Below the pieces are notes generated by a model. It was not told the DNA's origin. It did not search any database and saw nothing but the letters and a program-made list of their open reading frames with translations. DNA of 64,000 nt from Thermodesulfovibrio sp. (lineage in GTDB: Bacteria > Nitrospirota > Thermodesulfovibrionia > Thermodesulfovibrionales > UBA6898), in contig PNOC01000015.1 in assembly GCA_013824615.1 (NCBI GenBank), positions 1 to 64,000 of the forward strand, in the 5' to 3' direction. This document shows positions 17,380 through 62,934 of the stretch, piece by piece. Numbering within the stretch: the first letter of the stretch is position 1; every line of letters starts with the position of its first letter. The position numbers were made by a program, and so were the translations under genes.

Positions 17380-18207
17380 ATGAGTATGCGCTACCTTACA
17401 GAAATCTCCAAAGCACCATGGACAGTTCTGCAGAATCTCTACCTCTACCGGAACATACTGAACCAGATGGTGCTGCGCGAGGTCAAGGGGAGATTTGCCG
17501 GGTCTGTCGGCGGACTGTTCTGGCACTTTGTTCATCCGATTCTCATGGTCCTCATTTACCTGATCGTATTCGTATATATCTTCAAGCTGCGTGTAGGTTC
17601 GGGAGGGGGTACCGGAGCCTCGGCCGTCTACCTCATGGCGGGAATATTTCCGTGGATCATTCTGGCTGACGGCTTATCCCGCGGGGCCTCCGCCCTGATC
17701 GAAAATGCAAATTTGATTCAGAAGACCTACTTCCCGACCGAGATACTGATAGCCAAGGTAGTCCTCGCACCCTTTATAAATTTCGGCCTGGCCCTCTTTC
17801 TGCTTACGGCATTCAGAATCTTCACCGATGGGCTCTGGGGAATTTTGCTTATTCTGCCCTTTATACTGCTTCTGCAGGTATTCTTTACGATCGGCCTCGC
17901 CTTTATCTGCTCGGCCTTCTCGGTCTTTTTCAGGGATATCCTTCAGGTCGTGCAGATCATTGTCAGTATCTGGGTGTATGCAACCCCTATCTTTTATGAG
18001 ATATCCATGCTGCCTGCGTGGGCTGCAGACCTCATGTATCTCAATCCCCTCTTTCCCTTTATTTCAGTATACCATTCACTCTTCATCAAGGGTACGCTTG
18101 CCCACTGGCATATGCCCGGGCTGGCTTTTCTATGGACGGTCTGCATCTATGTCCTTGGGGCCTTCATATTTACAAAACTCAAGGCTGAGTTCGCTGACTG
18201 GTTATGA
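17380..18207 (+). CDS. wzm: ABC-2 type polysaccharide exporter permease (Wzm-like)
   Basis: A 275-aa membrane protein with six predicted helices and the ABC-2 family pattern: N-terminal amphipathic part with LREVKGRFAGSVGG, then FWHFVHPILMVLIYLIVF. Wzm proteins form the channel that moves undecaprenyl-linked O-polysaccharide or similar glycans across the inner membrane. It overlaps the ATPase gene by 4 bases (ATGA), so the two are made together. A second, diverged pair exists at 49276-51738. Confidence 0.92.
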   Translation: MSMRYLTEISKAPWTVLQNLYLYRNILNQMVLREVKGRFAGSVGGLFWHFVHPILMVLIYLIVFVYIFKLRVGSGGGTGASAVYLMAGIFPWIILADGLSRGASALIENANLIQKTYFPTEILIAKVVLAPFINFGLALFLLTAFRIFTDGLWGILLILPFILLLQVFFTIGLAFICSAFSVFFRDILQVVQIIVSIWVYATPIFYEISMLPAWAADLMYLNPLFPFISVYHSLFIKGTLAHWHMPGLAFLWTVCIYVLGAFIFTKLKAEFADWL

Positions 18208-19367
18208 TTGCAATAGACGTCAGGGATGTCAGGAAGATCTACCGGATATATAAGGCCCCTGCAGACCGGCTGAAGGAGATCGTCCTGAGACGATCTTTTC
18301 ATTCGGAATTTGTGGCGCTGGACACCATGTCCTTTTCGGTTCCACAGGGGTCTACTTTTGGCATTATAGGAGAAAACGGCGCCGGGAAAAGCACCCTGAT
18401 GAAGCTGCTGGCGAAGACGTTAAAGCCGACTTCCGGCAGCGTTACCATGGTCGGCAGGGTAGCGGCTCTGCTCGAACTCGGTGCAGGCTTCAACCCGGAA
18501 CTTACCGGAGACGAGAATATTTACCTGAACGCATATCTTATGGGCCTTACCAAGGATGAGATTGATGAACGGAAACAGCAGATAATCGATTTTTCAGAAC
18601 TCGGAGACTCTATCTTCCGACCGGTCAAGACCTACTCCTCCGGCATGTATGTGCGGCTGGCCTTCTCCATAGCCACGAGTGTAAACCCGGACATACTTAT
18701 CATTGATGAGGCACTTTCGGTCGGAGATCAGCATTTTCAGAAAAAGTGCATCGACCGCATGATCCGCTTCAAAGATGCAGGCAAGACGATCGTCTTCTGC
18801 TCACACAGTCTCTATCACGTGCAGGAGCTCTGTCAGACCACGCTCTGGATAGACCAGGGCAAGACCAGGATGATAGGCAAAACAGGGGCAGTAACCACAC
18901 ATTATCAGAATTTTGTACGGGCCAAGGATGAAATCAAGATCGACAAGGCCGAAGCAAAAACAGACTCGCCGATCATGATAAAGAAAATGACTGTTGTGGA
19001 CAGCCGCGGGCAGGAGATCACAACGATCACTGAATTCCAGGACATCTTCATCAATCTGGAAGTAAGTGCCCTGGAGCCTACCAAAGGTCATCTGGCCTTT
19101 GCCCTGATGCGTAATGATCAGGAGACCTGCTATGCCACGGGTACGCATTTCGATGGCTACCAGCCGATAACCTTTCGTGACGGCATGCATATGCGCATCG
19201 GACTCCCCCATTTCTGCCTCCTCAACGGCCTGTACTTCTTCAGCGTGGCGCTTGCAGACGATACCGGTCTCCATCCTTATCACGTGGCAAGTTCTCCTCA
19301 CATCTCCGTCCTGAACCAGAAACGGGAGCTGGGAATATTTCATATGGAGCACACATGGGAAATATAG
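18204..19367 (+). CDS. wzt: ABC exporter ATPase with C-terminal glycan-recognition domain (Wzt-like)
   Basis: A 387-aa ATPase. Walker A is GENGAGKST (about residue 57), the signature is YSSGMYVRLAFS and Walker B is DILIIDEALSVGD. Residues about 255-380 form a Wzt-C-type beta domain that in known systems binds the finished end of the glycan chain. This makes the substrate an end-capped polysaccharide. The end overlaps the methyltransferase gene by 13 bases, and methyl groups are a common capping signal for Wzt. Confidence 0.92.
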   Translation: MIAIDVRDVRKIYRIYKAPADRLKEIVLRRSFHSEFVALDTMSFSVPQGSTFGIIGENGAGKSTLMKLLAKTLKPTSGSVTMVGRVAALLELGAGFNPELTGDENIYLNAYLMGLTKDEIDERKQQIIDFSELGDSIFRPVKTYSSGMYVRLAFSIATSVNPDILIIDEALSVGDQHFQKKCIDRMIRFKDAGKTIVFCSHSLYHVQELCQTTLWIDQGKTRMIGKTGAVTTHYQNFVRAKDEIKIDKAEAKTDSPIMIKKMTVVDSRGQEITTITEFQDIFINLEVSALEPTKGHLAFALMRNDQETCYATGTHFDGYQPITFRDGMHMRIGLPHFCLLNGLYFFSVALADDTGLHPYHVASSPHISVLNQKRELGIFHMEHTWEI

Positions 19368-34423: not shown

Positions 34424-35152
34424 TCAAATATAGCCGCAATACTCAAGGTCACTCTTTATAATCATACGATACTCTTCAGGAAGAGACACCGACTCTGTTT
34501 TTGAAACATCAAGCCTGTCTTGCCGATATTCAGGCGGAATCAACAGATTATTAACACCTTGCAGCATCTTGTCTTCAAACGGAATTTCCAAAAAACTGCA
34601 GATATCAACTAACGTAGTCTGAGGATGAATCAATAAATCTTCAAATCTGATGCAAATATTATTAAAATGACGGGTCTTGAAAAATCGGTATATAGAAACG
34701 GAATACAGCCATCTTTCACATGCTGTCTGGTAAGTCATTCCGGTTCTCTGCACCTTTGAATTGACGCAAGTTCTGCCATCCCGCAGTATAAATATTACTT
34801 TTTTATCCCCTAAGTAGCTGTTAAAGAACTGGTCAGGAATATCTATTGTTGCTTGTGGGTTCTCCCTGTTATGGTCCTCCAGTCCAAACAGCTGTTCTGA
34901 TGTAATTTTGTTACCCCATTTTACATCCGGATTTCTGCCGGCTTCGATTTCACATGCAGCGATAAAGGCCCGGACACGCTCATCGAATATACTTGTCTGT
35001 TGAGCATTAAGCTCTTTTCCCATCAGATATGCAACAGAAAACATTTCAAAGGCAACAGTCAACCTGCTGTGGTAATCAAGCAAACCGGCAAGGAGACTTG
35101 TCCCGCCGCGACCAGCTCCCAGGATTAGAAACTCAAAGTTGTTACCTGCCAT
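34424..35152 (-). CDS. Sulfotransferase family protein
   Basis: A 242-aa PAPS-dependent sulfotransferase. The 5'-phosphosulfate loop is GAGRGGTSLLAGLL near residue 12, and the 3'-phosphate motif is ILRDGRTCVNS near 125. It would transfer sulfate from PAPS to a hydroxyl of the glycan. It is the last gene of the large cluster. CysC (51814-52416) can supply the PAPS and a second sulfotransferase domain is in the 1452-aa protein. Ribosome site AAGGGAAAT precedes the ATG. Confidence 0.85.
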   Translation of the reverse strand: MAGNNFEFLILGAGRGGTSLLAGLLDYHSRLTVAFEMFSVAYLMGKELNAQQTSIFDERVRAFIAACEIEAGRNPDVKWGNKITSEQLFGLEDHNRENPQATIDIPDQFFNSYLGDKKVIFILRDGRTCVNSKVQRTGMTYQTACERWLYSVSIYRFFKTRHFNNICIRFEDLLIHPQTTLVDICSFLEIPFEDKMLQGVNNLLIPPEYRQDRLDVSKTESVSLPEEYRMIIKSDLEYCGYI

Positions 35153-37314: not shown

Positions 37315-38349
37315 TTACACTGAGCTCCCTTTTCTGGTTTTGGAAAGCACAATAATACATTCAATGCCATTCTCATGAATACACTCAAGCAGAAATTGAT
37401 TATCCAGATAACTTCGGGCATCAGCAACGAAACCCTCGAGGCCTTTTCGGTCCCAAACATGGAAGTGAATTCGAAGGTCAGCTGTCTCCAATTTTTTTGC
37501 CCTGGTCATGATTTCCTCCTGCCTATGGTTGTTTTCTACAAATTCAATCCATTCGGCATAATGCATCAGACGGGAAACAGCAGGACTCTCCTTGTCATCG
37601 CGAACGAGATGCTCAAACGATGTAAGAGGCCGTGTCTTATCAAAAGTGTAATCCTTGTTGGGCACAGCATAGTAAATTATTCCGCCCGGCCTCAGTTTAG
37701 ACAAATGCGTCCTGAGGGTTCCCAAGGGGTTTTGACAGTGTTCCAGAAAATGATTTGCAATGATAAAGTCAATAGATTCATCCTCAATGGCAGACAAATA
37801 TTCCCCATCGTCAAGGATGTCTATTGGAACGCTTTTCAGTTCAGGGAACCTTAAATTGTTCTCTTCAGCAGATAATATATCAACATATCGCACTATGGTG
37901 TTTTCCTCAACCTGGAGAGGAGCATGATGAGCGCCAATCTCTATGCCATTTCCCCGAATGTATTTCCTGCTAAACTCATGTCTTGTCTTAATCCATTGGG
38001 GGGTATCCGACAACTCGGACACATTATTCTGTATAATATATGTATCGGCAGCAGTGCATTTCGTATATACCCTCACATTGCTGTCTAAAGGATATCCTTC
38101 TGCTATCTCGTCAATTTCAGCGTCGGCAACTCGCTGTATATCTTCGCCCCGAAATCCGGCTTTCTGGAAAATTTCAGGTGAAATGACCCAACGCTTCTTC
38201 GCATCCTCAATATAATAAACCCTGCCGCCATCAGTACCTTCTATCCCGGTAAGCAGCTTACCTTCAAATCTGCCCGGCCCCTTAGTCCGGATGAACGATT
38301 TGCAGCTATCAATAATATTTTTCCAGAGCGATGTTATTTTAATCTTCAT
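37315..38349 (-). CDS. Methyltransferase with N-terminal KRWI-type domain
   Basis: A 344-aa protein. Residues about 25-90 form a small domain with GGRVYYIEDAKKRWVISPEI and later GYPLDSN, of the type found in repeats that read 'vYLIengkKRWIps'. From about 120 a class I methyltransferase follows: RGNGIEIGAHHAPL, then ANHFLEHCQNPLGTL. The same domain pair is at the C-terminal half of the 827-aa protein (40517-43000), so the two are paralogues. ATG 38349 is chosen over GTG 38373 because of GGTGGA just before it. The acceptor is presumably the cluster's glycan. Confidence 0.8.
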   Translation of the reverse strand: MKIKITSLWKNIIDSCKSFIRTKGPGRFEGKLLTGIEGTDGGRVYYIEDAKKRWVISPEIFQKAGFRGEDIQRVADAEIDEIAEGYPLDSNVRVYTKCTAADTYIIQNNVSELSDTPQWIKTRHEFSRKYIRGNGIEIGAHHAPLQVEENTIVRYVDILSAEENNLRFPELKSVPIDILDDGEYLSAIEDESIDFIIANHFLEHCQNPLGTLRTHLSKLRPGGIIYYAVPNKDYTFDKTRPLTSFEHLVRDDKESPAVSRLMHYAEWIEFVENNHRQEEIMTRAKKLETADLRIHFHVWDRKGLEGFVADARSYLDNQFLLECIHENGIECIIVLSKTRKGSSV

Positions 38350-38510
38350 TTCCACCAATAGTGCCCTCAGCACTCACCATGAGCATGCAGTCGCACGCCC
38401 ATGCATGTCGTCGTTGCATTGCATAATCGTCCCAATATACTGCCCAAAGTTGAATCACAGACAAATTTCCGCTGGAGCTGCCGTCAACAGACACGCGAGA
38501 AAACAACCCG

Positions 38511-40520
38511 TTAATTGCCGTCCAAAGCATATGTTGGAATTCTTGATATTATCGATCTGAGTCTGTCGTGCATTGCAATCCTGTTTATATAGCCTGTGAA
38601 CATAATTTTCACTATTATTTGAGTCCTTTCTTCATTCGGCTGGAGGGTTCCGAAGTCGATCACGGTGCCATGCCATTTCCACTCAGTATTATCGTAAGGA
38701 GACAGCGGAGTCGTTGTATCGATATTCGACAGCAAATTCTCGTATTTAAACCAGTCAGGCCTGCTCGGAGCATATCCGAACGGGTCAAGGCTATTGACTT
38801 GCCCCGGCGCAGAACTGGAAAACACCTCGCTCCAAAGCTTGTTCCAGGTTGCGTGATATCTGATTCCTGCGGATTCCGGGGGGGCATATGTTGCGGCAAA
38901 CATGCCGCCATTTCTGTCATTATACATCCCGACCCAATTATTTTTATTAGCCCTGTTGGAATCATCAATGTACCATGCCCGGGAGAATTCATACTCACCG
39001 TCATCCCAATACTGATGAACATCTTTCTGGTTCGGCTCACCCTGCGTCATCCATGCCCCATCCTGAAAAACATAGATAAACCGGAGCGGTTGATCATGCC
39101 TGTTTCTGATTTTTATAGTCATGGGAACATAATTTTCGCTGTATGTCATATCATGCTGCACGGTAATGTCCGCAGGGGGAAGAATTCCGCTCCCCTTGTT
39201 GATACTGGACGTCAACGGATTATATCCATCGCCGGCATTGTACTGATGTCTTAAAAAAGCTTTCTGTCTCTCCTCGAGAAGACCGTGATGCACTGTCCAG
39301 TTCAGGCCGTATGCCCTCACCCAAGATGAAAAAGAATCATCGTAGGAAATAATCAGATCATCAGGAATACAGAAATAGTCGAACATATCATAGAAATTAT
39401 AGGTAAAGAAATGTTCATAAAATCCCCCTTCCATAATTGCCCTGTCCCCAAAGGTCATGGAAATATCAGTTACATTGCTTCGATAGATTTTTCTGTCCCA
39501 ATGATCGGGGGTCAGATCCAACCATGCAAAATACTCTATACCGTTTCCCGCTGAAACGGTAAATACCCTGAACGCAAGGTCCTGAGCCGTCGAACCGCTT
39601 TCTTGCCACAAGTGGCCGCCGGGATAAGGATCTCCAGAAGACACCCAGGCAGTGACCGAGTCATCCATTGATGATTCAGGAGATTCCAGTACTATGTAGT
39701 ACTGGGTCCCCTTCGAGGACTTTACCGGCGTAAATTCAAATCTGTGCCAATTGTTATTATCCAACTGCGAAGCATTCACTCTCACCACAGCCAGGTCTGC
39801 GATTTCGGAATTCAGATCATCTTTCAGGTGAAAGATAATTTCTTTTGTATTGGCCCGACCATACGTCCCGAACATAACATCAACCATCTGTATCAGGCCG
39901 TTCATAACAAAACTCTGAATGACCTGATTGCCGGATATAATATTCCCCGCTGTCAAATTCATCTGAGGTTGATCAATGACACATTCAGCGGGAACAGTAA
40001 TTCCCAGCGCTACATTCTCTATCGTAACGGCACCATTAACTATCGTAAGAGAGTCGATAGTTGTAGACTGGTTGTTGCTCGTAAAATTGCAATCGTAGCC
40101 ACCCTTCAACGTGACCGGGATATCCCGACTGAGCAGCAGGCTCTCGGCAAGGTCCCTGGCACGGACTTCTATTATTTCATTTTCAAGCGCTTCATCATAG
40201 GCATTTTGAAAAACGGGAAAGTACACAGGAGTCGTTCTCATTATCATGACAGGCTGCGGTGAACATTCCGACACGCTAAGGCCGGCCCCGGCCGCCTGAC
40301 TGCCCGAAGCCAATCCTCCGGATTTTGAAACAGGGAGAAAAACCGTGCCGGAATTGCCATTCAGAACGTTTTCCGTGTCCAAAACGGTTCCTTTACCCGC
40401 CATAACAGCTGCATCTGCAGAAAACGAAAAAGTGACAATCAGGAAACATAACACCGGGAATACAAGTCCCGGTTGCACACCCGTTGCAAAAATCCGGCAA
40501 TCCCTGCCAAATCTGCTCAT
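38511..40520 (-). CDS. Secreted protein with GGYDC motif and a module shared with a methyltransferase
   Basis: A 669-aa exported protein with a signal peptide of about 38 residues ending at ADA. Residues about 130-180 hold VTLKGGYDCNFTSNNQ, a surface-protein motif also present in the right-edge gene. Residues about 190-320 resemble a beta module in the adjacent 827-aa protein (IQSFVMNGLIQMVDVMFG there matches VQSFFTTGAICQIDIMFE). The C-terminal 340 residues are beta-rich and aromatic-rich without a recognised catalytic motif. The ATG overlaps the stop of the methyltransferase gene by 4 bases. It may bind or modify the exported glycan; the function is not known. Confidence 0.75.
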   Translation of the reverse strand: MSRFGRDCRIFATGVQPGLVFPVLCFLIVTFSFSADAAVMAGKGTVLDTENVLNGNSGTVFLPVSKSGGLASGSQAAGAGLSVSECSPQPVMIMRTTPVYFPVFQNAYDEALENEIIEVRARDLAESLLLSRDIPVTLKGGYDCNFTSNNQSTTIDSLTIVNGAVTIENVALGITVPAECVIDQPQMNLTAGNIISGNQVIQSFVMNGLIQMVDVMFGTYGRANTKEIIFHLKDDLNSEIADLAVVRVNASQLDNNNWHRFEFTPVKSSKGTQYYIVLESPESSMDDSVTAWVSSGDPYPGGHLWQESGSTAQDLAFRVFTVSAGNGIEYFAWLDLTPDHWDRKIYRSNVTDISMTFGDRAIMEGGFYEHFFTYNFYDMFDYFCIPDDLIISYDDSFSSWVRAYGLNWTVHHGLLEERQKAFLRHQYNAGDGYNPLTSSINKGSGILPPADITVQHDMTYSENYVPMTIKIRNRHDQPLRFIYVFQDGAWMTQGEPNQKDVHQYWDDGEYEFSRAWYIDDSNRANKNNWVGMYNDRNGGMFAATYAPPESAGIRYHATWNKLWSEVFSSSAPGQVNSLDPFGYAPSRPDWFKYENLLSNIDTTTPLSPYDNTEWKWHGTVIDFGTLQPNEERTQIIVKIMFTGYINRIAMHDRLRSIISRIPTYALDGN

Positions 40521-43000
40521 CGGAGCAATACTCCATCAAGGACCTGCAGCGCCCTGGCCAGGTCAGTCCTGAGCTTTCCAATCTCCTGAAGGATCTGATT
40601 CTGCGGGGCATCAGTTCCGGCAGCAACCGAATCAGCATCGACCCGGTAGACACAGATGATTTCGTTCGTCGTCCTTCTCCCCGGATCAGAGCTATAAGGG
40701 TCGGCCGCAGATTCAAAGCTGACCGTCCGCTTCCCGAAAGCAGCCGCAGCCATGATCACTTGCCTGAAAAGTGTCTCATTGAAGGCATGCCAGTGCAGAT
40801 CGTTTTCAGGTGCTTTTGCGCATTCGTGAGTTTTTCGGGCTATCTCAAGTTTCTCCAGCTCTTTCGCAAAACCATCATCGATCCAGCCCATAACAAATGA
40901 GTAGATATGTTCCCTCGATTCAAAGCTGTCGTCGTTCCTCCTGAGCAGATAATCCAGCAGAAGGTGTGCGAAAGACGGAAAGAGCCTCCCCTTGTCGGGA
41001 CAGCAATCCGCATCCGGAACGGAAAGGACAACGGTACCGCCATCCTTTACATAGCTATGCCACTCAAGCAGCGCTCCGATGGGATCTGAAAGGTGTTCCA
41101 GCACATGGTGAGCTATAAGAAAATCAGCCTTTTCAGGGAATCTTTCACGAAAGACATCCAGAGAATAGACCTTATTGATACCCGATATTTCTACCTTAAA
41201 AAGTTCAGCCAATTCCCTTTCGCTGCGCTTATCGTAGTATTCGCATTCCACCCCCGGGGGAAGAGGATGCGGGGAGACTCCAGCCCCAATCTCAATTCCC
41301 GTGCCGCGAAGATAAGGAGATGCTACATCATGCCGAATATTTGATGCTGCAGCAATAGGCTCGCCGGTTGGAACCGCATTGAGCGTTTCTGCACCCACGG
41401 TGCGAATCTGATTCCACTTAAAACCACATTTCTCGAACACGGACGGGGAAGTTATCCATCTTTTCTGGCCCTTTTCAATTAAATATACTTTCCCTTCGTT
41501 AGAACCATCTTTTCCTCTGACTAAGGCCCCTTCAAATATCCTGCAAGATGCTTTTTCCCTGGCAAGGTATTCTTGATACTGCAGGTATGATCTAGTCGGA
41601 CCAAACACCTTAAACACAATATCTCTGTCCATTCTCTTTCCGTTAACCAGCAACTCGCCATCAGCAAAGCATTTAAGATCAGAGGCTTTCACCGTAACCG
41701 GGCTGCCGCTAACAGCGCGAAGTGATTCTATAATTATATAGAACCACCCTGTTGACGACTGCAGGGGTTTGAATTTAATTTCGCACCATTCGTTCCCCGC
41801 CAGGTCAGCACCCTTTATCTCCTCAAAAACAAGGTCAGCATCGGAGCAGAGGTCATCCTTCAGCCTGATGCTGACATCACCGGAAGTTTCCCGTCCAAAC
41901 ACTTCAAACATTATATCGATCTGACAAATTGCTCCCGTGGTAAAAAAAGACTGCACAACCTTCACCTGCCCCCGTATTTCATCGAGACAGGAGTGACAAT
42001 TGTATTGGCAGATGATTGGACGGGGTCTCGTAAACGATTCATCGATAAAATCCAGCCCTGCTTCCGGGGCCGGGAGTTCCTTTTGAGGCAAGGGAGCCTC
42101 AGCAAGGAATACGGCTCCGAAGGTTGGTTCTCTGTATCCAAGGTCATCAACCTCGACTTGCTTGAGCACAAAATCCTTTTCTGTGAATGTTTCGTCCTCC
42201 GGCGTATTGTTGAAATCCGTCGAAATTGAGCTATCCTTAGCAATATGAGAAAAACAGCGCACATGTTTAAAATATTTCTTTAGCACATAATCCCATTGCG
42301 TGGGAGCCCAGATATTCAGGTGCTGAAAAATACCCATATTATTTTTTTTATCAGCATCAGACACGATTGAGGGCACAACGATAAACAGCTTACCCGTGGG
42401 TTTCAGCACCCTGCATAATCCATACAAGAAGGCCGGCACGTTTTCAATATGCTCCAGCACATTGGATGAAAAAACAAAATCAAAGTAATTGCTGTCAAAT
42501 CCGGTGATATTCTCCAAATCCATCTGTTTGTAAGCAAGATTGTTCATTCTGAAAAAACGAGCGCTGAACGCTACTGCAGCAGGACTCAATTCTATGCCAA
42601 TGACATTGCAATTTCCCTGACTGGAGAGATATGCAGTCCCATATCCGCTACCGGAGCCGGCATCGAGTATACTGGATCCATTTTCAATGAAGGGCAGAGA
42701 CAGATAATAAAGAGAAAGATGGGCGTAAAAACAGTTATTCGGAAAAAGATGGGTTATCCTTTCGCCATATTCCATGATGTCTTTCGCTGTGTCCTTATTC
42801 TTGCGATATTCGGCAAGCAGTTTTTCTTTCCTGAAATCAACGAAAGCCGCCGGCCTTCTCCTTTTCATTCCATGCAAAGACAGGAGTTGTCCGAGGTAAT
42901 GTATCGGTCTTGGCAGTTTCATTTTATATAGTATCTTTCTGAATATACGTATGTTTTGATCTGATTTTAGCATATATCCATTTCGAATGAACCACTTCAT
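40517..43000 (-). CDS. Double methyltransferase with central beta module and KRWI-type domain
   Basis: An 827-aa fusion. Methyltransferase 1 has ILDAGSGSGYGTAYL near residue 112 and NVLEHIENVP. A beta-sandwich-like module follows at about 340-470. A KRWI-type domain is at about 490-560 (KVYLIEKGQKRWITSPSVFE). Methyltransferase 2 starts RGTGIEIGAGVSPHPL near 565, with AHHVLEHLSDPIGAL. A short coiled coil ends the protein. Two different methylations, or catalysis plus glycan binding and length control as in WbdD-type capping enzymes, are possible. The start is uncertain: ATG 43000 or ATG 42922. Confidence 0.8.
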   Translation of the reverse strand: MKWFIRNGYMLKSDQNIRIFRKILYKMKLPRPIHYLGQLLSLHGMKRRRPAAFVDFRKEKLLAEYRKNKDTAKDIMEYGERITHLFPNNCFYAHLSLYYLSLPFIENGSSILDAGSGSGYGTAYLSSQGNCNVIGIELSPAAVAFSARFFRMNNLAYKQMDLENITGFDSNYFDFVFSSNVLEHIENVPAFLYGLCRVLKPTGKLFIVVPSIVSDADKKNNMGIFQHLNIWAPTQWDYVLKKYFKHVRCFSHIAKDSSISTDFNNTPEDETFTEKDFVLKQVEVDDLGYREPTFGAVFLAEAPLPQKELPAPEAGLDFIDESFTRPRPIICQYNCHSCLDEIRGQVKVVQSFFTTGAICQIDIMFEVFGRETSGDVSIRLKDDLCSDADLVFEEIKGADLAGNEWCEIKFKPLQSSTGWFYIIIESLRAVSGSPVTVKASDLKCFADGELLVNGKRMDRDIVFKVFGPTRSYLQYQEYLAREKASCRIFEGALVRGKDGSNEGKVYLIEKGQKRWITSPSVFEKCGFKWNQIRTVGAETLNAVPTGEPIAAASNIRHDVASPYLRGTGIEIGAGVSPHPLPPGVECEYYDKRSERELAELFKVEISGINKVYSLDVFRERFPEKADFLIAHHVLEHLSDPIGALLEWHSYVKDGGTVVLSVPDADCCPDKGRLFPSFAHLLLDYLLRRNDDSFESREHIYSFVMGWIDDGFAKELEKLEIARKTHECAKAPENDLHWHAFNETLFRQVIMAAAAFGKRTVSFESAADPYSSDPGRRTTNEIICVYRVDADSVAAGTDAPQNQILQEIGKLRTDLARALQVLDGVLLR

Positions 43001-43069: not shown

Positions 43070-44824
43070 CTACCTCTTTGCTGACCCAGGAAAAGCCGTT
43101 GCAAACCAGTAGCACATGATAAACAGCGTCCATACCTGCAGATGGGCATCGTTTTCTTTTCTGTAATAGCTTTCAATAAATTTCCTTGCATATCTCAGAT
43201 TAATTACTTCGGTCAGGGATGATGTATTCAGTGTTTCCAAAACGTCCATTACCAGAGGCTTGAATGTCTTCATCATCCCCTGAACCGGCACGGTAAAACC
43301 CATCTTGGGCCTTTTGATTATCACCTCCGGTATGCGGGATTTCAATGCAGTCTTCAGCAGCCATTTTTGAGTGCCCTCTGAGGCTATTTTATAATCCTGG
43401 GGCAGTGAGGCTGCAAACTCAAACAACTTCTTGTCAAGAAACGGAAAGCGGCCTTCGAGCGAATGGGCCATGAGAATTTTATCGGCTTTCATCATAAGGT
43501 TCTCGGGCACCCATGTTTTCATATCATAGGCCAACATACCGTTTAACAGAGGATAATCCTCAAAATATTTCTTGAACCTGGGTGTGTGGTCCGGCATAAA
43601 GCCATTGTTCAGGAAATCATTGGAATTTGGAAAATACCAACTTCGCCTCATGAATTCATCAAACCTCTTGCTGTAGGGCACCCCTGCCTCCACGAGATGC
43701 CTGTATTGCAGATAGCCCCCAAAAAGTTCGTCCCCACCTTCTCCTGACAGAACGACGGTAACATGTTTTTTTATCTCTCTCGCGAGAATATACAAAGGAA
43801 AACAGGCAGGATCTGCAATCGGTTCATCAAGCGCCCTGACGACGGAGTCAACACTATTCATCAATTCTTCCGGTGTCGTGATGATCTCAATATGTTCAAG
43901 ACCATATTCCCTGGCAACTGCACGTGAAAATTCGAATTCGTTAATATCGGGGAACCCGATATTGAATGTCTTAAGATGTGCCCCGCAGGAATGGATCAGG
44001 CAGGCTATTGCGCTCGAATCAATGCCGCCGCTCAACAGAACACCTATGGGGACCTCACCCATGAGCTGAGATTTGACTGCGGAGAGCAGCAGGTCGGACA
44101 GTTCTTGCTGTACCTCTTTGAGTGCAGGGCGCGGATAGGGATCGGTATAGGAAACGTCCCAGTATCTGAACTGTGCCGATCTGCCGCGTTTAATCTCCAG
44201 ATATGTGCCTGATTCCAATTTCCTGATCTTACCAAAAAAGGTGAACGGGGCCTGAACATACCTGAAGGTGAGATAATCCTGAATGCCGGCAGCATCCAGA
44301 GAAAGATCAACCCCCGGAAGACCGAGTATCCCTTTCAGTTCTGACGAAAAAATTATCTGCTCGGCATCCTCATAGACATACAGCGGCTTTATCCCAAAGC
44401 AGTCCCTGGCCAGGTAAATGACATCAGTCCGGTCATCCCATAAGCAGAAGGCAAACATACCATTGAGCTCTTTTAAAAAAGCAGTCCCATACTCCTCGTA
44501 GCCCCTCAATATCACTTCCGTATCAGTATTTGTATGAAACTGATAGCCCCTGTTCTTCAGATCATCCCGAAGTGCGGTATAGTTATATATCTCTCCGTTA
44601 TAAACAAGTCCAATGCTCCTGTCTTCATTGTAGATAGGCTGATGGCCACCCGAAATATCAACAATCGAGAGCCTGCGATGGATGCATCCGTGATTTTTCC
44701 CTATATGTTCTCCGTGGTCGTCAGGACCTCGATGAATCAGCAGGGGGCCCAAGGCCGCAAGGCAGGCCTTTATCCTTGCCTGAGGCAACGCCTGCTTTCC
44801 GATAATGCCTGCTATTCCACACAT
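43070..44824 (-). CDS. asnB: Glutamine-hydrolysing asparagine synthase family protein
   Basis: A 584-aa AsnB-type amidotransferase. ATG 44824 is chosen because it places the nucleophile Cys at position 2 (MCGIAGIIG). The glutaminase domain covers about 1-200. The synthetase domain has the pyrophosphate loop LLSGGIDSSAIA near 265. In polysaccharide clusters such proteins often amidate uronic acids or make modified amino acids rather than free asparagine. Whether this one serves the glycan is inference from its place between two glycan genes. Confidence 0.92.
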   Translation of the reverse strand: MCGIAGIIGKQALPQARIKACLAALGPLLIHRGPDDHGEHIGKNHGCIHRRLSIVDISGGHQPIYNEDRSIGLVYNGEIYNYTALRDDLKNRGYQFHTNTDTEVILRGYEEYGTAFLKELNGMFAFCLWDDRTDVIYLARDCFGIKPLYVYEDAEQIIFSSELKGILGLPGVDLSLDAAGIQDYLTFRYVQAPFTFFGKIRKLESGTYLEIKRGRSAQFRYWDVSYTDPYPRPALKEVQQELSDLLLSAVKSQLMGEVPIGVLLSGGIDSSAIACLIHSCGAHLKTFNIGFPDINEFEFSRAVAREYGLEHIEIITTPEELMNSVDSVVRALDEPIADPACFPLYILAREIKKHVTVVLSGEGGDELFGGYLQYRHLVEAGVPYSKRFDEFMRRSWYFPNSNDFLNNGFMPDHTPRFKKYFEDYPLLNGMLAYDMKTWVPENLMMKADKILMAHSLEGRFPFLDKKLFEFAASLPQDYKIASEGTQKWLLKTALKSRIPEVIIKRPKMGFTVPVQGMMKTFKPLVMDVLETLNTSSLTEVINLRYARKFIESYYRKENDAHLQVWTLFIMCYWFATAFPGSAKR

Positions 44825-44924
44825 ACTACATATTCCGCGGAACACTTTCCGCACACCCTCTCCAAATGGTGGGGAGAAACATCACCACGCGCTATCCTCA
44901 AAACTATTGTCCTGCTTATTGGCA

Positions 44925-47900: not shown

Positions 47901-49283
47901 AACAACACATTCAATCCCCAGTTGCGTTAACTCCTCGATAAGGTTATAGACCCGGTATCGTTTAGACTGCTGGTCAAATGTTGTCGTCATGAAAGAAATT
48001 TTTCTTATTCTTGAGGGCTTCCCATCCCTGGCAGCATAATATTCAACAGCAGCCTCATTCAAGCCGGTTTCATCTGCCTGCGAAATCCCGACAAGACGTT
48101 TTTTGGCAGAAACCAACCTTGATATCAGAGATCGGACAGAGCGTCCCCGCTTACTGTACAGAGGCAGTATCTGATCATCGACAGCCCGCAAGAGTGTTTT
48201 AGCCATTTTCCAGGTTGCGCTGTCCTCTATTGTCTTTAGCCTCGCAATCTCCTGGTTTTTCTCCATTAATTGCGAATTCAGGATTGTTAGCTGTCCATTA
48301 TATTTTTGAATTTCCTGGTTTATTTCAAAGACTTGAGCGTTCAACGTCTCAGCGTGCCTCTCTTTCATGGCAAGCCGGTAATTGAGACCGGATATCTTCT
48401 GATTGGCGTCCCATAGCGAATACACATCGTCTTCGAAGAAAGAAGCATATGCTGAGAAGCTCTCATAGAGAGCATCAACGCGTGCATATACTCTTGCATC
48501 AGGCCGGACACCCGATTGTGACAGCTCCAACAAGTGTCCATATAATTCGATAACGAAAGAGGGGGCATTAATTTTTTCAAGATCTTCTACTGTTGACATG
48601 CTATGACAAAGATCCGGACGCACAAATGTTTTGATCGCGTCATTGACCTCCCGGCCACAGTTTGGCCAAACAATATCCAATATTTCTGCGCATTTATCAA
48701 GTTCATATCCGCTGTCTGCAAAAAGCTTCTCATAGGAGATAAAGGCTGTCTTTACATTGCGAATCGAACGGAGGGCCTGAATATTATAATTAAACCAGAT
48801 ACCCAGACTTTTCTCGACAGAGAAGGCATTTCTCTTTTCAAGAGACCTCGCGACATCAAGAGGGTTCCTGATGACAAAAATACAGCAGACTTCGATATCC
48901 AGATCGGCAAGAACTTTCTCCCACAGCGGGAAAAGCAACATGGAGCGGGGATCTTTCCACGCCCACAAGGCATGGTTCTGAAAATTTCCGATGATCAGCT
49001 TTATGAGCTGCTCTTTCAGAAGTACTATCTCCGGCGATGCCTGCCAGTTATCCGGCAAAGGCAGGACTGTGTCCCAGCCTGTCTTGAATTTTCTCATGAG
49101 ACTTTCGGTCAGTTCAAAAATGTCATTTCTTTCCCAGAAGCCTTCAGGGTTGATACCGGGCACCGGCGGCATGAGGATACTCTCCTCCCCCAGATAGGCG
49201 CCACAGAGATTTACCAGGCGTGTCACAGCAGACGTTCCGCTCCGGTGCATGCCCAGTATGCAAATGGCCTTTGATTTAGACAT
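44925..49283 (-). CDS. Sulfotransferase-coiled coil-glycosyltransferase chimera
   Basis: A 1452-aa protein with at least four catalytic-type domains. Residues 1-260 are a sulfotransferase (ILGMHRSGTSAVTRL, later FVIRNPLDVARSL). A coiled coil covers about 290-365. A GT-B glycosyltransferase follows at about 410-785 (IPIVFDVDDLIFIP, SELKIFEAALVKIP). A GT2 domain at about 815-1090 contains FSIVSVLYNKEKEIAFFLK, LVNDRTRDNS, IIDADC and GWEDVEMGYRL. The last part, 1120-1452, is a second GT-B-like region ending SRGEAMLCGLVTVSMNNHDV. ATG 49283 overlaps the wzt stop by 8 bases. It probably builds and sulfates part of the repeat or cap. Confidence 0.85.
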   Translation of the reverse strand: MSKSKAICILGMHRSGTSAVTRLVNLCGAYLGEESILMPPVPGINPEGFWERNDIFELTESLMRKFKTGWDTVLPLPDNWQASPEIVLLKEQLIKLIIGNFQNHALWAWKDPRSMLLFPLWEKVLADLDIEVCCIFVIRNPLDVARSLEKRNAFSVEKSLGIWFNYNIQALRSIRNVKTAFISYEKLFADSGYELDKCAEILDIVWPNCGREVNDAIKTFVRPDLCHSMSTVEDLEKINAPSFVIELYGHLLELSQSGVRPDARVYARVDALYESFSAYASFFEDDVYSLWDANQKISGLNYRLAMKERHAETLNAQVFEINQEIQKYNGQLTILNSQLMEKNQEIARLKTIEDSATWKMAKTLLRAVDDQILPLYSKRGRSVRSLISRLVSAKKRLVGISQADETGLNEAAVEYYAARDGKPSRIRKISFMTTTFDQQSKRYRVYNLIEELTQLGIECVVFHETIGSLEPVMDSDLLIVFRVPFSDKVGTIMEKIREKNIPIVFDVDDLIFIPECMKYFDGLQCMSASVRKNFIEVIPRWKATLIQCDAVTCSTETISRYAAELGKDAFVIANTINNAQLDLSEQLLRSKEYSENVKIGYFSGTRTHNKDFEEVADALYEILTDFPSVEFHLVGELDLEERFSGFGDRVVVKSLMSHLDYITYKAAMDINIAPLELNNPFTDSKSELKIFEAALVKIPTVASPAASYKACITDGVDGFLAASKQEWYDALSLLIDNPSLRRKIGETAQEQFVRRFSIKNVIPEVLRTYEEIITRHRTATASMKKKRYLPGKLPRFSIVSVLYNKEKEIAFFLKALAAQNYPGNCEIVLVNDRTRDNSVRVVRDFMTTLNSSAEAGQRLDVKLIDNPTNIGNCGSRNIGIRHAEGDIVVIIDADCIVNEDFLYAHAEAHAYGDGDIVIGPLNLETNGQDPLAVLQAYEKDTERMLKDSRLQDPINHRSFLNCITRNISIRKEVISGDLFDDSFSYSEDERSGFGWEDVEMGYRLYKQGARIKFTSEAFSVHISHPSSADERTKPLRSLRNFRKLYEKHPELLLAARQWTLDTYQKICDWVDQFGHAKNDDRLYLDHLFQRFIPAPFNIGRHRRLKILTHRWHCAHQYELYKLPHEFTLATGTGTGITDYWEYDKRPLPPNAQMQDIREVRIKDYDLAIVHFDENVLAPENTNGIIAPAWGWGETLKWFRKNVKLPMVAVCHGTPQFHGQYNIHYREPDLMQVIEKERVKLVDFMCDVLVIANSFQAQREWDFRKSKVIWHGFDPAEFYPARYERGILAMLEKAMLNRPHYNGYFQYREVFDEFPGEYAPTMLHVPEPNVLYAKNSNAYAYAKFRNYVDEIRQYSIYFNPTLRSPMPRSRGEAMLCGLVTVSMNNHDVDMFIRNGVNGFYSNDAYELREYLRYLLKNPEQCRKIGLEGRKTAMDIFNNDRYLKAWDDTIAEVL

Positions 49284-50706
49284 CGGTTGCCGTTTCACGG
49301 GCATTGACGGCTGTTATCTCAGGTCCTGTGCTATTCACAGAAAAATCAATGATGCCGGTTGCCACGAAGTTCTCTGCCCGCTGGACTCTAAACATGCATA
49401 TATCGACAATTCTATGCAAAAACACCTCAGCACTGTCAATGACACCCATTACGCCGGAATTTAAAAAATAAACACCAGGAAGAAAAGAACACTTGAATCT
49501 GAATTGCAAACGCAACCTGGCTCCACGGTCGATGCTTGGGACTCCTTTATGGGGCTCGTGCGACGACATCCCGCCGAGTCCAAGACCGGTGGTTGTCTTA
49601 AAAAGGATTCCGAATCTAACCTTCTGAGCGGCCTCCTCGAAATGAACCTCAAAGGAATACAGGTACTCGTCGCCATGGACCAAAACATTTACAACGTCGC
49701 CGCCGTTTGTTGTAATTTGGGGACAACATATGGTCACCCCCCTTGACTCATAGGCAATAGTGCTTTGGGGGAGCAGCTTCGGGTCATAATAAGCCTGACC
49801 GTCCTGTCCGGACTGGACCGTTTCAGTCGCATTCTGAGGTGTTATGGACATGCCATTCCGGGAAATATCTCCACCGAGGGTATCTAATAACCCCCGGATT
49901 TTATCCTGCGGACCGTATATCAGTCTATGATAAAGAGACACAACGTGCTTTGGAGTCCCTCTCAGATGCATCTTCCCATGGTCAAATAACAGTGCAGTTT
50001 TGCATAACTCCACCACCATCGATGCTGAGTGAGATACAAACAAAATAGTTCGATTATCCTCCTGCATGCGATGGAGCCGGGAAAAACATTTCCGCTGAAA
50101 CGCCTCGTCGCCAACTGCCAGCGCCTCATCAATAATAAGAATATCCGGATCCACGTGAATTGCCGAAGCAAAGGCAAGCCGGACATACATGCCGCTTGAA
50201 TAGGTCTTCACCGGTTGATCAATAAAGCCGCCGATGTCCGCAAATTCAGCAATAGCGTCAAACCTCTCGGCCACCTCTTCGTTTGTCAACCCCAGCAAAG
50301 CCCCGTTCATATACACATTCTGTTTCCCGGTAAATTCGGGATTGAATCCAGACCCGAGTTCCAGCAAGGCTGATATTCGCCCGCGAACACTGACTGCACC
50401 CTCTGTTGGCTGCAATATTCCGCATATGATCTGCAGAAGTGTGGACTTTCCGCTTCCGTTTCTGCCAATAATCCCCACCGTTTCCCCTTTTGCAATCTCG
50501 AAGGAAATATCCTGCAGTGCCCAGAAATCGCGATGATATTTCTTGCGAAAAGGATTGAGAGCTTCTCTCAGGCGGTCCTTGGGAGTGTCATAAAGACGGT
50601 ATTTCTTGCTAACGTTTTTTACGGAAATCGCTATTTCGGGAATTAATCGTGAATCCGCGGATGGAACTCCGGGACTGGAGGCCGGCGTCTGGGAATTAGT
50701 ATTCAT
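49276..50706 (-). CDS. wzt: ABC exporter ATPase with C-terminal glycan-recognition domain (second Wzt-like)
   Basis: A 476-aa ATPase with Walker A GRNGSGKSTLLQ, signature YSSGMYVRLAFA and Walker B ILIIDEALAVGDEAF. Residues about 310-465 are a Wzt-C-type beta domain, longer than in the first copy (18204-19367). The N-terminal extension of about 25 residues is Pro/Ser-rich. It is transcribed with the 1452-aa chimera, and 207 bases separate it from its permease. Confidence 0.93.
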   Translation of the reverse strand: MNTNSQTPASSPGVPSADSRLIPEIAISVKNVSKKYRLYDTPKDRLREALNPFRKKYHRDFWALQDISFEIAKGETVGIIGRNGSGKSTLLQIICGILQPTEGAVSVRGRISALLELGSGFNPEFTGKQNVYMNGALLGLTNEEVAERFDAIAEFADIGGFIDQPVKTYSSGMYVRLAFASAIHVDPDILIIDEALAVGDEAFQRKCFSRLHRMQEDNRTILFVSHSASMVVELCKTALLFDHGKMHLRGTPKHVVSLYHRLIYGPQDKIRGLLDTLGGDISRNGMSITPQNATETVQSGQDGQAYYDPKLLPQSTIAYESRGVTICCPQITTNGGDVVNVLVHGDEYLYSFEVHFEEAAQKVRFGILFKTTTGLGLGGMSSHEPHKGVPSIDRGARLRLQFRFKCSFLPGVYFLNSGVMGVIDSAEVFLHRIVDICMFRVQRAENFVATGIIDFSVNSTGPEITAVNARETATDV

Positions 50707-50913: not shown

Positions 50914-51738
50914 TCATAATGCATCTGCAAAATGGGGCCGGAGTCTTAGAAATATTATGGCGCCGAGAACGAATACAAAGCCTGTCACCCCCCAATAGTA
51001 GAGCATCATCTGCCAATGGTACCAAAAGGGAACAGCATAGAGAAAGGATTCACGATATCCCTGTACAATATAGAACATCGGATTCAGCTTTACGAATATT
51101 TGATATTTCTCGGGCATAATCGCAAGATCCCAGAATATCGGAGTACCCCAGAAGCCGATCTGCATGATCACCCCCACTATCTGGGCAGTGTCCCTCGCAA
51201 AAACATTGATTGAAGACGTAATCCACCCCACCCCCAGAGCAAGAATACTCATGGCAATAAAATAATAAAATGCCTGGAACCAATAGAAACTGAACGGCAG
51301 TCCCTGCAGGATAATCAGCAGAACGAGGAGCACAAGAAAAATAACATGAGTAACAAAAGAGCCCACCAGTTTTGTAACCGGAAGGATACTGAGAGGGAAT
51401 ACGATCTTCTTAACCAGATGGGGATTGCTGATGATAGAAGCCGTCGCACCATTCACGACCTCAACAAACGTGTTCCATATGCACATGCCGGCAGTTAACC
51501 ACACGACAAAGGGAATATTTCCTCTCGGAACTGTCTTAAACCCAAAGCTGAAGACAAACCAGAGGATAAAGATCATGATCAGGGGATTTACAAAGGTCCA
51601 GAAAAAACCGAGCAGCGAACCTATATGCTGGCTCGAAATATCACGCTTGGCCATTTCGACTATCAACGACCTTCGATGATACACAATGGCAATAAATCCG
51701 AGGAATCCGTTAAACAACAGATGAATTTTACTGAGCAT
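50914..51738 (-). CDS. wzm: ABC-2 type polysaccharide exporter permease (second Wzm-like)
   Basis: A 274-aa six-helix permease with MAKRDISSQHIGSLLGFFWT and FVNPLIMIFILWFVFSFGF, the usual opening of the Wzm/TagG family. It pairs with the ATPase downstream. The gap to that ATPase (50707-50913) has no gene; it holds a 6-bp stem CCATGA/TCATGG at 50873-50888 and nothing else I can name. Confidence 0.92.
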   Translation of the reverse strand: MLSKIHLLFNGFLGFIAIVYHRRSLIVEMAKRDISSQHIGSLLGFFWTFVNPLIMIFILWFVFSFGFKTVPRGNIPFVVWLTAGMCIWNTFVEVVNGATASIISNPHLVKKIVFPLSILPVTKLVGSFVTHVIFLVLLVLLIILQGLPFSFYWFQAFYYFIAMSILALGVGWITSSINVFARDTAQIVGVIMQIGFWGTPIFWDLAIMPEKYQIFVKLNPMFYIVQGYRESFLYAVPFWYHWQMMLYYWGVTGFVFVLGAIIFLRLRPHFADAL

Positions 51739-51813: not shown

Positions 51814-52416
51814 TCATGTCAGCAGAAACCCTTTGCCTTCGATAAACCTCATGATAGCTTTGACCGAGTCCTCCAATGACAGCTTTTCAGTGTCCACAAT
51901 CAGCTCGGGGGACTCAGGTTCTTCATAGGGGGCTGAGATGCCGGTATAATTTTTTATGATGCCAGCCCTCGCCTTCTTGTACTGGCCTTTGGGGTCGCGT
52001 TTTTCACATTCCTCAAGACCGCATTTTACATAGATTTCAGCGAAATTGTCATTGCTGAATATCTTTCGAACGGCCGAGCGGTCCTCCCGAAATGGTGATA
52101 TAAAGGCCGCCAGGACTACGAGACCTGCATCGACCATCAGCCTTGCAACTTCCGCAATGCGGCGCATATTCTCTTTTCTGTCCTCAGCACTGAAGCCGAG
52201 ATTGGCATTCAGGCCATGCCGTACATTGTCGCCATCAAGGACGTATACCCTGATGCCTCTATCAAACAGTTCCTTTTCGACGGCATGGGCTATGGTTGAC
52301 TTGCCTGAGGCAGAGAGGCCGGTAAACCAGAAAAGGCCGCTCTGATGAGCATTCCTGGCGTTCCTGTCGCTTCTTGTTACCTCACCCTGATGCCACACTA
52401 CATGCGTATCCAACAA
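51814..52416 (-). CDS. cysC: Adenylylsulfate (APS) kinase
   Basis: A 200-aa kinase that converts APS and ATP to PAPS. The P-loop GLSASGKSTIAHAVE lies near residue 34, with DGDNVRHGLNANLGFS and FISPFREDR following; all are family hallmarks. The start is TTG 52416 with AGAGG 7 bases upstream. No ATP sulfurylase or PAPS reductase genes are nearby, so the product most likely feeds the two sulfotransferases of this cluster rather than assimilation. Confidence 0.95.
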   Translation of the reverse strand: MLDTHVVWHQGEVTRSDRNARNAHQSGLFWFTGLSASGKSTIAHAVEKELFDRGIRVYVLDGDNVRHGLNANLGFSAEDRKENMRRIAEVARLMVDAGLVVLAAFISPFREDRSAVRKIFSNDNFAEIYVKCGLEECEKRDPKGQYKKARAGIIKNYTGISAPYEEPESPELIVDTEKLSLEDSVKAIMRFIEGKGFLLT

Positions 52417-61559: not shown

Positions 61560-62432
61560 TTACTTGACAGATGACTTCTCAAGCATATCGACCTTTGCAG
61601 CCAAGGTCTCAATTGTCTTGTTCTGCTCCTGAACAACCTTTGTAAGAACAGCAATGATTTCCGTAACCATAACTCCCTTGCGATCCTTTGTCGCGATCTG
61701 TGCAGGGACATCCTCAGCAATAAAACCCATATGTTTTGTGTCGGGGTCAGTGAGATACGTAAAGGAAACAGGTGCAAGATCAGCAACCATCTTCATTGCA
61801 GACGCTGCAGATACAGCCTCGATATTGTCTTTATACGTCCGGCTTGAAACATTGGAAAGCCCGGTGTATGAGATAGTGCCGTTTACATGGAGCGCTGATG
61901 CAGGAGCCGTTGTGCCAATACCTACATTGCCGTTTGATGCAACGGTCATTTTCGTGCTAGAACCAACCTGGAAATTAATTGGCCTGACGGTCATGCCAGT
62001 TCCACTAGCAAATGAATTAATCGAAAAACCATTTGCGCCGCCAGCTCTTACCACAAGCGCTTCGTAGTTCGCAGGATCTGACACAAAGTCGGTATTAAAC
62101 ACTGTCAATTGAGCCTTTATTCCAGCGCTGAACCCAGTACCCTTAGGAATAACCTGGAATGCAGGTGCCGCATTTAGTCCTGACGTAATAGGATAAAAAG
62201 CCGCTGTAGGAAAATTATCAAGCGCTGCAGCATTCTGCATAGAGATATCTCTCGTTCCAGCAGTTCCGCCGGTACCACCAAGAACTGCCTCTCCAAGGTC
62301 AGTAACCTTGAACACATCTGAAGTCCCACCGCTATTTTTTACGATCAGCTTCGAACTTCCAAGAGCCAGTGCCGCCCCCGCAAAACTCATTATCATCACT
62401 ACTGACAACATTGCTACCATCATTTTCTTCAT
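61560..62432 (-). CDS. Secreted fibre-like protein with C-terminal S74 intramolecular chaperone domain
   Basis: A 290-aa protein. ATG 62432, preceded by GGAAAGGAG, begins a clear signal peptide MKKMMVAMLSVVMIMSFAGA. The middle is Gly/Ala/Thr-rich and has fibre-like motifs (NGNVGIGTTAPASALHVNG). The last 95 residues are a peptidase S74 domain: SSRTYKDNIEAV holds the Ser and Lys of the self-cleavage site, followed by HMGFIAEDVP and a coiled-coil end. S74 domains drive trimerisation and then cut themselves off, best known from phage tail spikes. Here it looks like a cellular surface fibre. Confidence 0.88.
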   Translation of the reverse strand: MKKMMVAMLSVVMIMSFAGAALALGSSKLIVKNSGGTSDVFKVTDLGEAVLGGTGGTAGTRDISMQNAAALDNFPTAAFYPITSGLNAAPAFQVIPKGTGFSAGIKAQLTVFNTDFVSDPANYEALVVRAGGANGFSINSFASGTGMTVRPINFQVGSSTKMTVASNGNVGIGTTAPASALHVNGTISYTGLSNVSSRTYKDNIEAVSAASAMKMVADLAPVSFTYLTDPDTKHMGFIAEDVPAQIATKDRKGVMVTEIIAVLTKVVQEQNKTIETLAAKVDMLEKSSVK

Positions 62433-62934
62433 TTTTTTCTCCTTTCCATAATTGGAAAATACGTTTTTAAAGATATCACATCCCAAAAAAACTTTGGTCC
62501 CCTGTTCTGAGATACCTCCTCTCGGCAATAAATATAATTTTTTTAGAGACAACGCCTCTATATTTTTGGTAAAGTCGCATCCAACAGAAATATATTACCA
62601 TATAAAATCAAGCAGTCACATAAGTCAGGAACTTATTGGGCTGTAAGTTTTTCGGATATTTCTGTAGGTTTTGCCCTACAAAAACATACTATTCACAAGA
62701 ACCAGACCCAAAAAGCAGCAATCTACCAGCTATCACTGCCTGTTACTCTTATTTAATATTATACTAAACCCCATAGTGTTTTACTATTATTTTTTATTAA
62801 TCAAATGCTCATGTCAGCATATATCACGCCGGGACATGACCAAAGCTACCCCCACCTGCTAATACTACGTTATACCACAATCAGCAACCGACTGTCTATC
62901 GGAAATGCCTGCCCACTCCCTTCACGGGACTTTA
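62433..62934 (-). other. 502-base intergenic region upstream of the S74-domain gene
   Basis: AT-rich and without a credible gene. It contains a candidate extended -10 promoter (62592-62619), a 6-bp stem-loop TGTAGG/CCTACA at 62663-62680 and a GAGAGGAGGTATCTC dyad near 62508-62523. The last 120 bases next to the right-edge gene hold nothing I can name. Confidence 0.5.
62592..62619 (-). promoter_or_regulatory. Candidate extended -10 promoter of the S74-domain gene
   Basis: On the minus strand GTGACT (62619-62614), a 16-base spacer and TAATAT (62597-62592) with TGG before the -10. The -10 block is very similar to that before the 472-aa gene. The -35 is poor, so the extended -10 would matter most. 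The leader would be about 150 bases. Confidence 0.4.

Follow-up and report, generated by a model that had tools for sequence, protein, structure and literature searches.

The window, a stretch of 64,000 nucleotides of contig PNOC01000015.1 from Thermodesulfovibrio sp., carries on its minus strand two overlapping genes whose products, P0001 and P0002, share a module of about 130 residues (Table 1). The earlier note had described open reading frames for a secreted protein and a cytoplasmic methyltransferase here, and both were found on that strand where it had placed them. The methyltransferase label is correct, P0002 having two such domains separated by the module and by a stretch that we call the KRWI region; its tail beyond the second methyltransferase domain is short, and no kinase family was among its Pfam matches up to E 1, which a divergent kinase could have escaped. 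No segment of P0002 exceeds the hydrophobicity cut-off that was applied, and the protein would therefore be cytoplasmic, so that the claimed location stands as a prediction. P0001 has a hydrophobic segment at residues 23-41 by hydropathy, and a signal-like N-terminal stretch is also found in both of its orthologues, in the genomes G300 and G225. Since the stop of P0002 and the start of P0001 share the bases ATGA, the two proteins are likely to be translated jointly, by what would be translational coupling.

Table 1. Features of the P0001/P0002 locus and the surrounding gene run, in window positions.
Feature	Position	Strand	Remarks
P0001	38511..40520	minus	669-aa predicted secreted protein: signal peptide, N-terminal repeat-type region, module, conserved C-terminal domain
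Signal peptide of P0001	40410..40520	minus	residues 1-37, by eye: hydrophobic stretch, then ADAA
'GGYDC' region of P0001	39993..40283	minus	residues ~80-176; recurrent in own genome
Module copy in P0001	39546..39974	minus	residues 183-325
C-terminal domain of P0001	38514..39545	minus	residues 326-669; ~345-aa predicted secreted domain
ATGA overlap, P0002 stop/P0001 start	40517..40520	minus	four bases, read from sequence
P0002	40517..43000	minus	827 aa: methyltransferase 1, module, KRWI region, methyltransferase 2; predicted cytoplasmic
Methyltransferase domain 1 of P0002	42380..42667	minus	residues 112-207; Methyltransf_11, E 4.8e-27 with the whole protein, 1e-21 with this half
Module copy in P0002	41591..42019	minus	residues 328-470
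'KRWI/SP..F' region of P0002	41336..41548	minus	~60 aa; also in ORF 37315-38373 and a G225 methyltransferase
Methyltransferase domain 2 of P0002	40520..41344	minus	Methyltransf_23, E 1.3e-9
Sulfotransferase	34424..35152	minus
Methyltransferase, 352 aa	37315..38373	minus	KRWI region present, shared module absent
Asparagine-synthase-like amidotransferase	43070..44854	minus	also adjacent or close to the P0001 orthologues of G300 and G225
Multi-domain glycosyltransferase, 1459 aa	44925..49304	minus	relatives in both other clusters (G300, G225)
Wzt-type ATPase	49276..50706	minus	C-terminal Wzt_C carbohydrate-binding domain
ABC-2 permease (Wzm-type)	50914..51738	minus
APS kinase	51814..52416	minus	sulfate donor supply

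The polysaccharide cluster and the secreted protein

The gene pair lies in a cluster that forms a single minus-strand run with Wzm/Wzt-type export in this Nitrospirota genome, and that also holds two family-2 glycosyltransferases besides the second methyltransferase. The gene content of this run points to a methylated, and probably also amidated and sulfated, surface polysaccharide that leaves the cell by the ABC route. The asparagine-synthase-like amidotransferase is present in all three clusters compared and perhaps amidates a sugar acid of the polysaccharide, and the 1459-aa protein combines several glycosyltransferase regions with an N-terminus that is only weakly sulfotransferase-like (E 0.07). 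At the end of the run lies a protein with a Peptidase_S74 domain, an endosialidase-type intramolecular chaperone (61560-62552, minus strand; E 1.8e-8). A second Wzt-type frame on the plus strand (18204-19367) has a weaker Wzt_C domain (36 bits), and the window probably contains two ABC polysaccharide exporters.

The C-terminal domain of P0001 is about 50% identical in the two orthologues (loci L035, 10052-11116, and L036, 9636-10709), and strong matches to it occur in 3/230 genomes of the class, namely this one, G300 and G225. In the latter two it is clustered with an asparagine-synthase-like protein, a large glycosyltransferase and methyltransferases. It has no Pfam or PDB relative; PKD_4 was not taken, its match falling short of the cut-off (E 0.019 in the strongest of the three members), nor were weak matches in G263 and G374, both inside what we read from the sequence as a PurL-like protein. 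Its structural model is poor (pLDDT mostly about 25-45) and no fold was assigned; our guess is that it would act on the exported polysaccharide. The plasmid collection held no match to the module or to the C-terminal domain, and nothing was found for viral contigs. The N-terminal 'GGYDC' region has 19 matches in its own genome (P0001, the P0002 module and 17 further places) and is scattered over the genomes of relatives as well.

A region of the form G+VY.IE..KRW+.SP..F.K.GF precedes methyltransferase domains in three proteins (41336-41548 and 38074-38286, both on the minus strand, and L036 6118-6330). Its only Pfam resemblance, to EccB of type VII secretion, is weak (E 0.0053) and below the cut-off.

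Kinship and turnover of the module

The earlier note had claimed a match of more than 100 residues between P0001 and P0002, with FHLKDDLNSE in one and IRLKDDLCSD in the other. Both motifs are present, and the match was borne out by BLASTP, by shuffling and by leave-one-out profiles. When the whole proteins were compared by BLASTP, residues 199-320 of P0001 aligned with residues 347-466 of P0002 with 41/122 identities (34%; 75.1 bits, E 5e-18), and the module stretch was the sole significant match between them. The module pair scored 177 by Smith-Waterman, whereas the highest of 300 shuffles scored 44. With E-values scaled to 20,000 sequences, the leave-one-out profiles recovered P0002 at 2.8e-28, from a profile of the other three cluster modules, and P0001 at 9.8e-39. 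A search of the genome with the P0001 module returned itself and P0002 only (P0002 at E 8.6e-16). Judged by these alignments, the module in the two proteins is a case of true, non-trivial homology, and the sequences back the view that one homologous module would lie on both sides of the membrane.

Strong matches to the module occur in 4/230 genomes of the class: two copies in this genome, two in G300 (contig JAJZPM010000012.1, Nitrospirae bacterium isolate SKS1.bin124), a near relative of the same family, and one each in G201 and G308, which belong to the same genus; a match in a fifth genome of the class, G040, was weak and not kept. A scan of contigs with strict peptide patterns found the G300 contig only. 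In a draw of 395 genomes of the phylum five matched, including weak matches in G040 and G048 that were dropped (E 0.005-0.009 over only 34-58 profile positions); a match in G235 (E 6e-4) was also set aside, its frame having stops and overlapping another gene frame. Related modules may well occur in other phyla.

The segment N-terminal to the conserved C-terminal domain holds one module in P0001, two in tandem in the G300 orthologue and another segment in the G225 orthologue, where no module was detected though the C-terminal domain is 50% identical; an impression of a CBM4/9-type domain at the N-terminus of the G225 protein drew nothing from Pfam or PDB. The tandem modules of G300 (L052 6001-6855, plus strand) are identical at 217/225 bases over one stretch while their ends differ, which on this sequence pattern is recent gene conversion or intragenic duplication. 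In G225, a relative of the second half of P0002 (45% identity over 352 aa, KRWI region included) is free-standing and lacks the shared module. In G201 and G308 the module lies near the C-terminus of a membrane protein, flanked by two hydrophobic segments, and a profile built without these copies detected it there (E 8.7e-10 and 1.1e-7); we read the host as a distant GT-C-like membrane protein, Pfam giving no match for the G201 protein. Given this doubling, absence and occurrence in membrane proteins among relatives, the module can be regarded as a mobile accessory unit, discrete, non-catalytic, repeatable, and gained and lost on hosts of putative carbohydrate-related activity. Its hosts appear to be exported or membrane proteins, with a single cytoplasmic enzyme among them.

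With the secreted modules of G300 the P0001 module shares 48-49% identity, with that of P0002 34%. In a tree of six short sequences with a very long outgroup branch formed by the GT-C copies, which is thin evidence, the P0002 module falls outside the secreted modules (bootstrap 80, FastTree support 0.88); the P0002 copy would therefore not be a recent duplicate of the P0001 copy, and the two may have diverged before the secreted modules split from each other. This age bears on the question of whether P0002 is an artefact of fusion, or a decaying fusion, whose module would be without function, having come in through recombination with the adjacent gene. The domain arrangement of P0002 was found in one genome only among those searched, a candidate donor gene adjoins it and its second half stands alone in G225, all of which would fit such an event; yet the copies are old and have no similarity at the DNA level beyond 10 bases, the frame is open across 827 codons, and the core and loop residues have been retained, so that we consider this origin very unlikely.

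Predicted fold and candidate binding site

When five modules were compared with Pfam-A up to E 10, no carbohydrate-binding module (CBM) was matched, the only matches being AceK_kinase (0.056) and DUF6386 (0.051). There is no NCBIfam family for the module, and PHROGs gave matches of E 0.0017 or weaker, to one member each, with no family named. The best PDB sequence match (E 0.07) was not taken, and kinship to Wzt_C was rejected, with an hhalign probability of 0.2% against three Wzt C-terminal regions and no PF14524 match.

The model of the P0002 module has seven strands, with a mean pLDDT of 52.5 and core blocks at 55-81; that of P0001 has a mean of 35.1, with 47-68 across most of the module and the same strand order. 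The agreement of the two models is not independent, because their alignments hold each other's rows. The top structural match of both is a baseplate domain of phage phi812 (Z 9.1 and 9.0), followed by the CBM BT0996-C (7zvo; Z 8.9, rmsd 3.0, 104 aligned, and Z 8.3, 3.1, 106) and a porphyran-binding CBM (8xmz; Z 7.9 and 7.7), in a ranking by VIA-align that re-orders Foldseek's list only and at Z values of 7-9 that, by the tool's own note, are near the generic range for common arrangements and are reached by unrelated models. The lower matches include CBM4, CBM32 and CBM35, but also virus coat proteins, Eph receptors and APC/C, and the first Foldseek rows were BcsB at low TM-score. The module fold is thus likely, on these models, to be a jelly roll, and its predicted likeness to CBMs suggests sugar binding. 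The "beta" part of the earlier description agrees with the predicted strands, in models that are both of low confidence. Its "binding" part is plausible, because the predicted fold resembles jelly-roll sugar-binding modules and the hosts are polysaccharide proteins, although the models are weak and such a fold is widespread. The structure comparison that the note had proposed gave overlapping neighbours, in models that are not independent, and the sequences a shared polar segment; neither of the outcomes that the note had named as counting against it, differing structures or a generic fold lacking common surface residues, was seen.

This polar segment, GR...LKDDLxSxxDL, is common to the four cluster modules and absent from the GT-C module. 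The four have 27 invariant columns, of which nine remain once the GT-C module is added, those lost including GR and most of LKDDLxSxxDL. Between P0001 and P0002, 14/32 hydrophobic strand positions, 10/27 polar strand positions and 17/67 loop positions are identical, strand 8 having been assigned by us and facing guessed from residue type. Polar residues beyond the fold core are therefore shared, as a common site would need, and descent alone could explain this.

A jelly roll of this kind might instead mediate protein-protein contacts or oligomerisation, bringing the polysaccharide machinery together, and bind no sugar. Jelly rolls that do not bind sugar rank as high in the structural comparison, and the charge of the conserved KDDLxSxxDL loop would be compatible with a site for metal or protein binding. 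The two copies, however, would work in different compartments, which makes the same partner protein unlikely, and G300 has tandem copies, a habit of glycan-binding modules; we consider this role rather improbable. The carbohydrate-binding domains of Wzt dimerise by strand exchange (PMC9445017), and as they both dimerise and bind sugar, the jelly-roll fold is capable of both.

A proposed docking role in polysaccharide export

We favour the reading that the module serves an ABC-exported surface-polysaccharide cluster as a non-catalytic docking part with a jelly-roll fold, probably one that binds sugar, and put the probability of such docking, probably to glycan, in both hosts at roughly 0.5. In P0002, where the module separates the two methyltransferases, it would retain the growing lipid-linked polysaccharide close to their cytoplasmic active sites; in P0001 it would tether the secreted C-terminal domain to the polymer once exported.

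The weakest link of this proposal is recognition of one and the same chemical feature by both copies, which we put forward tentatively. The adjoining genes and the conserved GR...LKDDLxSxxDL loop make a common glycan possible, while a tight pairing is harder to reconcile with a module that both protein families can do without and with copies that are not recent duplicates. The alternative would be a history of shuffling from a common ancestor in which each module became adapted to its own ligand (other sugars, or chain ends), so that kinship would be uninformative as to a shared glycan. The identity of only 34%, the closer likeness of the P0001 module to those of G300, the position of the P0002 module in the tree and the replaceability of the module in both families are consistent with such shuffling; that a module so rare should occur twice in overlapping genes here, with its polar loop retained in both copies, is less readily explained by it. 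We regard shuffling of this kind as possible, at odds well short of even. Extending the docking reading, a new jelly-roll module without a Pfam entry might let matched readers find one polysaccharide by its address, the same chain feature being read through P0002 before and P0001 after ABC export with Wzt_C between, which we find doubtful.

A partial precedent for P0002, by analogy, may be ORF6-O7, the terminator of Klebsiella pneumoniae O7, described as having a methyltransferase, a kinase and a predicted CBM whose role is not pursued there (PMC11231755). Both proteins would be cytoplasmic O-polysaccharide methyltransferases of ABC-export clusters with a sugar-binding-like beta domain, but P0002 has two methyltransferase domains and no Pfam kinase, and its module recurs in a secreted neighbour. 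The O7 authors state that CBMs had not been found in other terminators (PMC11231755). WbdD of E. coli O9a is a methyltransferase that modifies the polysaccharide ahead of its recognition by the CBM of Wzt; it contains a kinase and a coiled-coil region but, unlike P0002, no such module (PMC3482155). The C-terminal domain of Wzt is a jelly roll, and the Aquifex version recognises a methylated chain end (PMC9445017). The modelled P0002 module would resemble Wzt_C (PF14524) as a jelly-roll module in the cytoplasm and in the same pathway, but the P0002/P0001 module has no sequence kinship to it and the cluster has a Wzt_C domain of its own (49276-50706). The predicted strand arrangement and the attached, repeatable accessory use are as in CBM4, 6, 32, 35, 36 and 61 and in the carbohydrate-binding domains of BcsB and AlgX; unlike the named jelly-roll CBM families, the module has no CBM match in Pfam up to E 10, and its Z-scores are generic.

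Literature searches, which covered mostly non-subscription papers, listed no description of a module like this one from methyltransferases or from both sides of the membrane, nor of such clusters in this lineage. Of the proteins in these pathways, the exporter Wzt has an established sugar-binding domain, and one terminator enzyme is suspected of having one. Neither the module nor the P0001 C-terminal domain has an entry in Pfam, and the analysis marks both as families. A module kept in a cytoplasmic polysaccharide-modifying enzyme as well as in its secreted partner would help to show how a cell keeps tailoring enzymes on one of many glycans, and the shared module would serve as a ready probe for its glycan.
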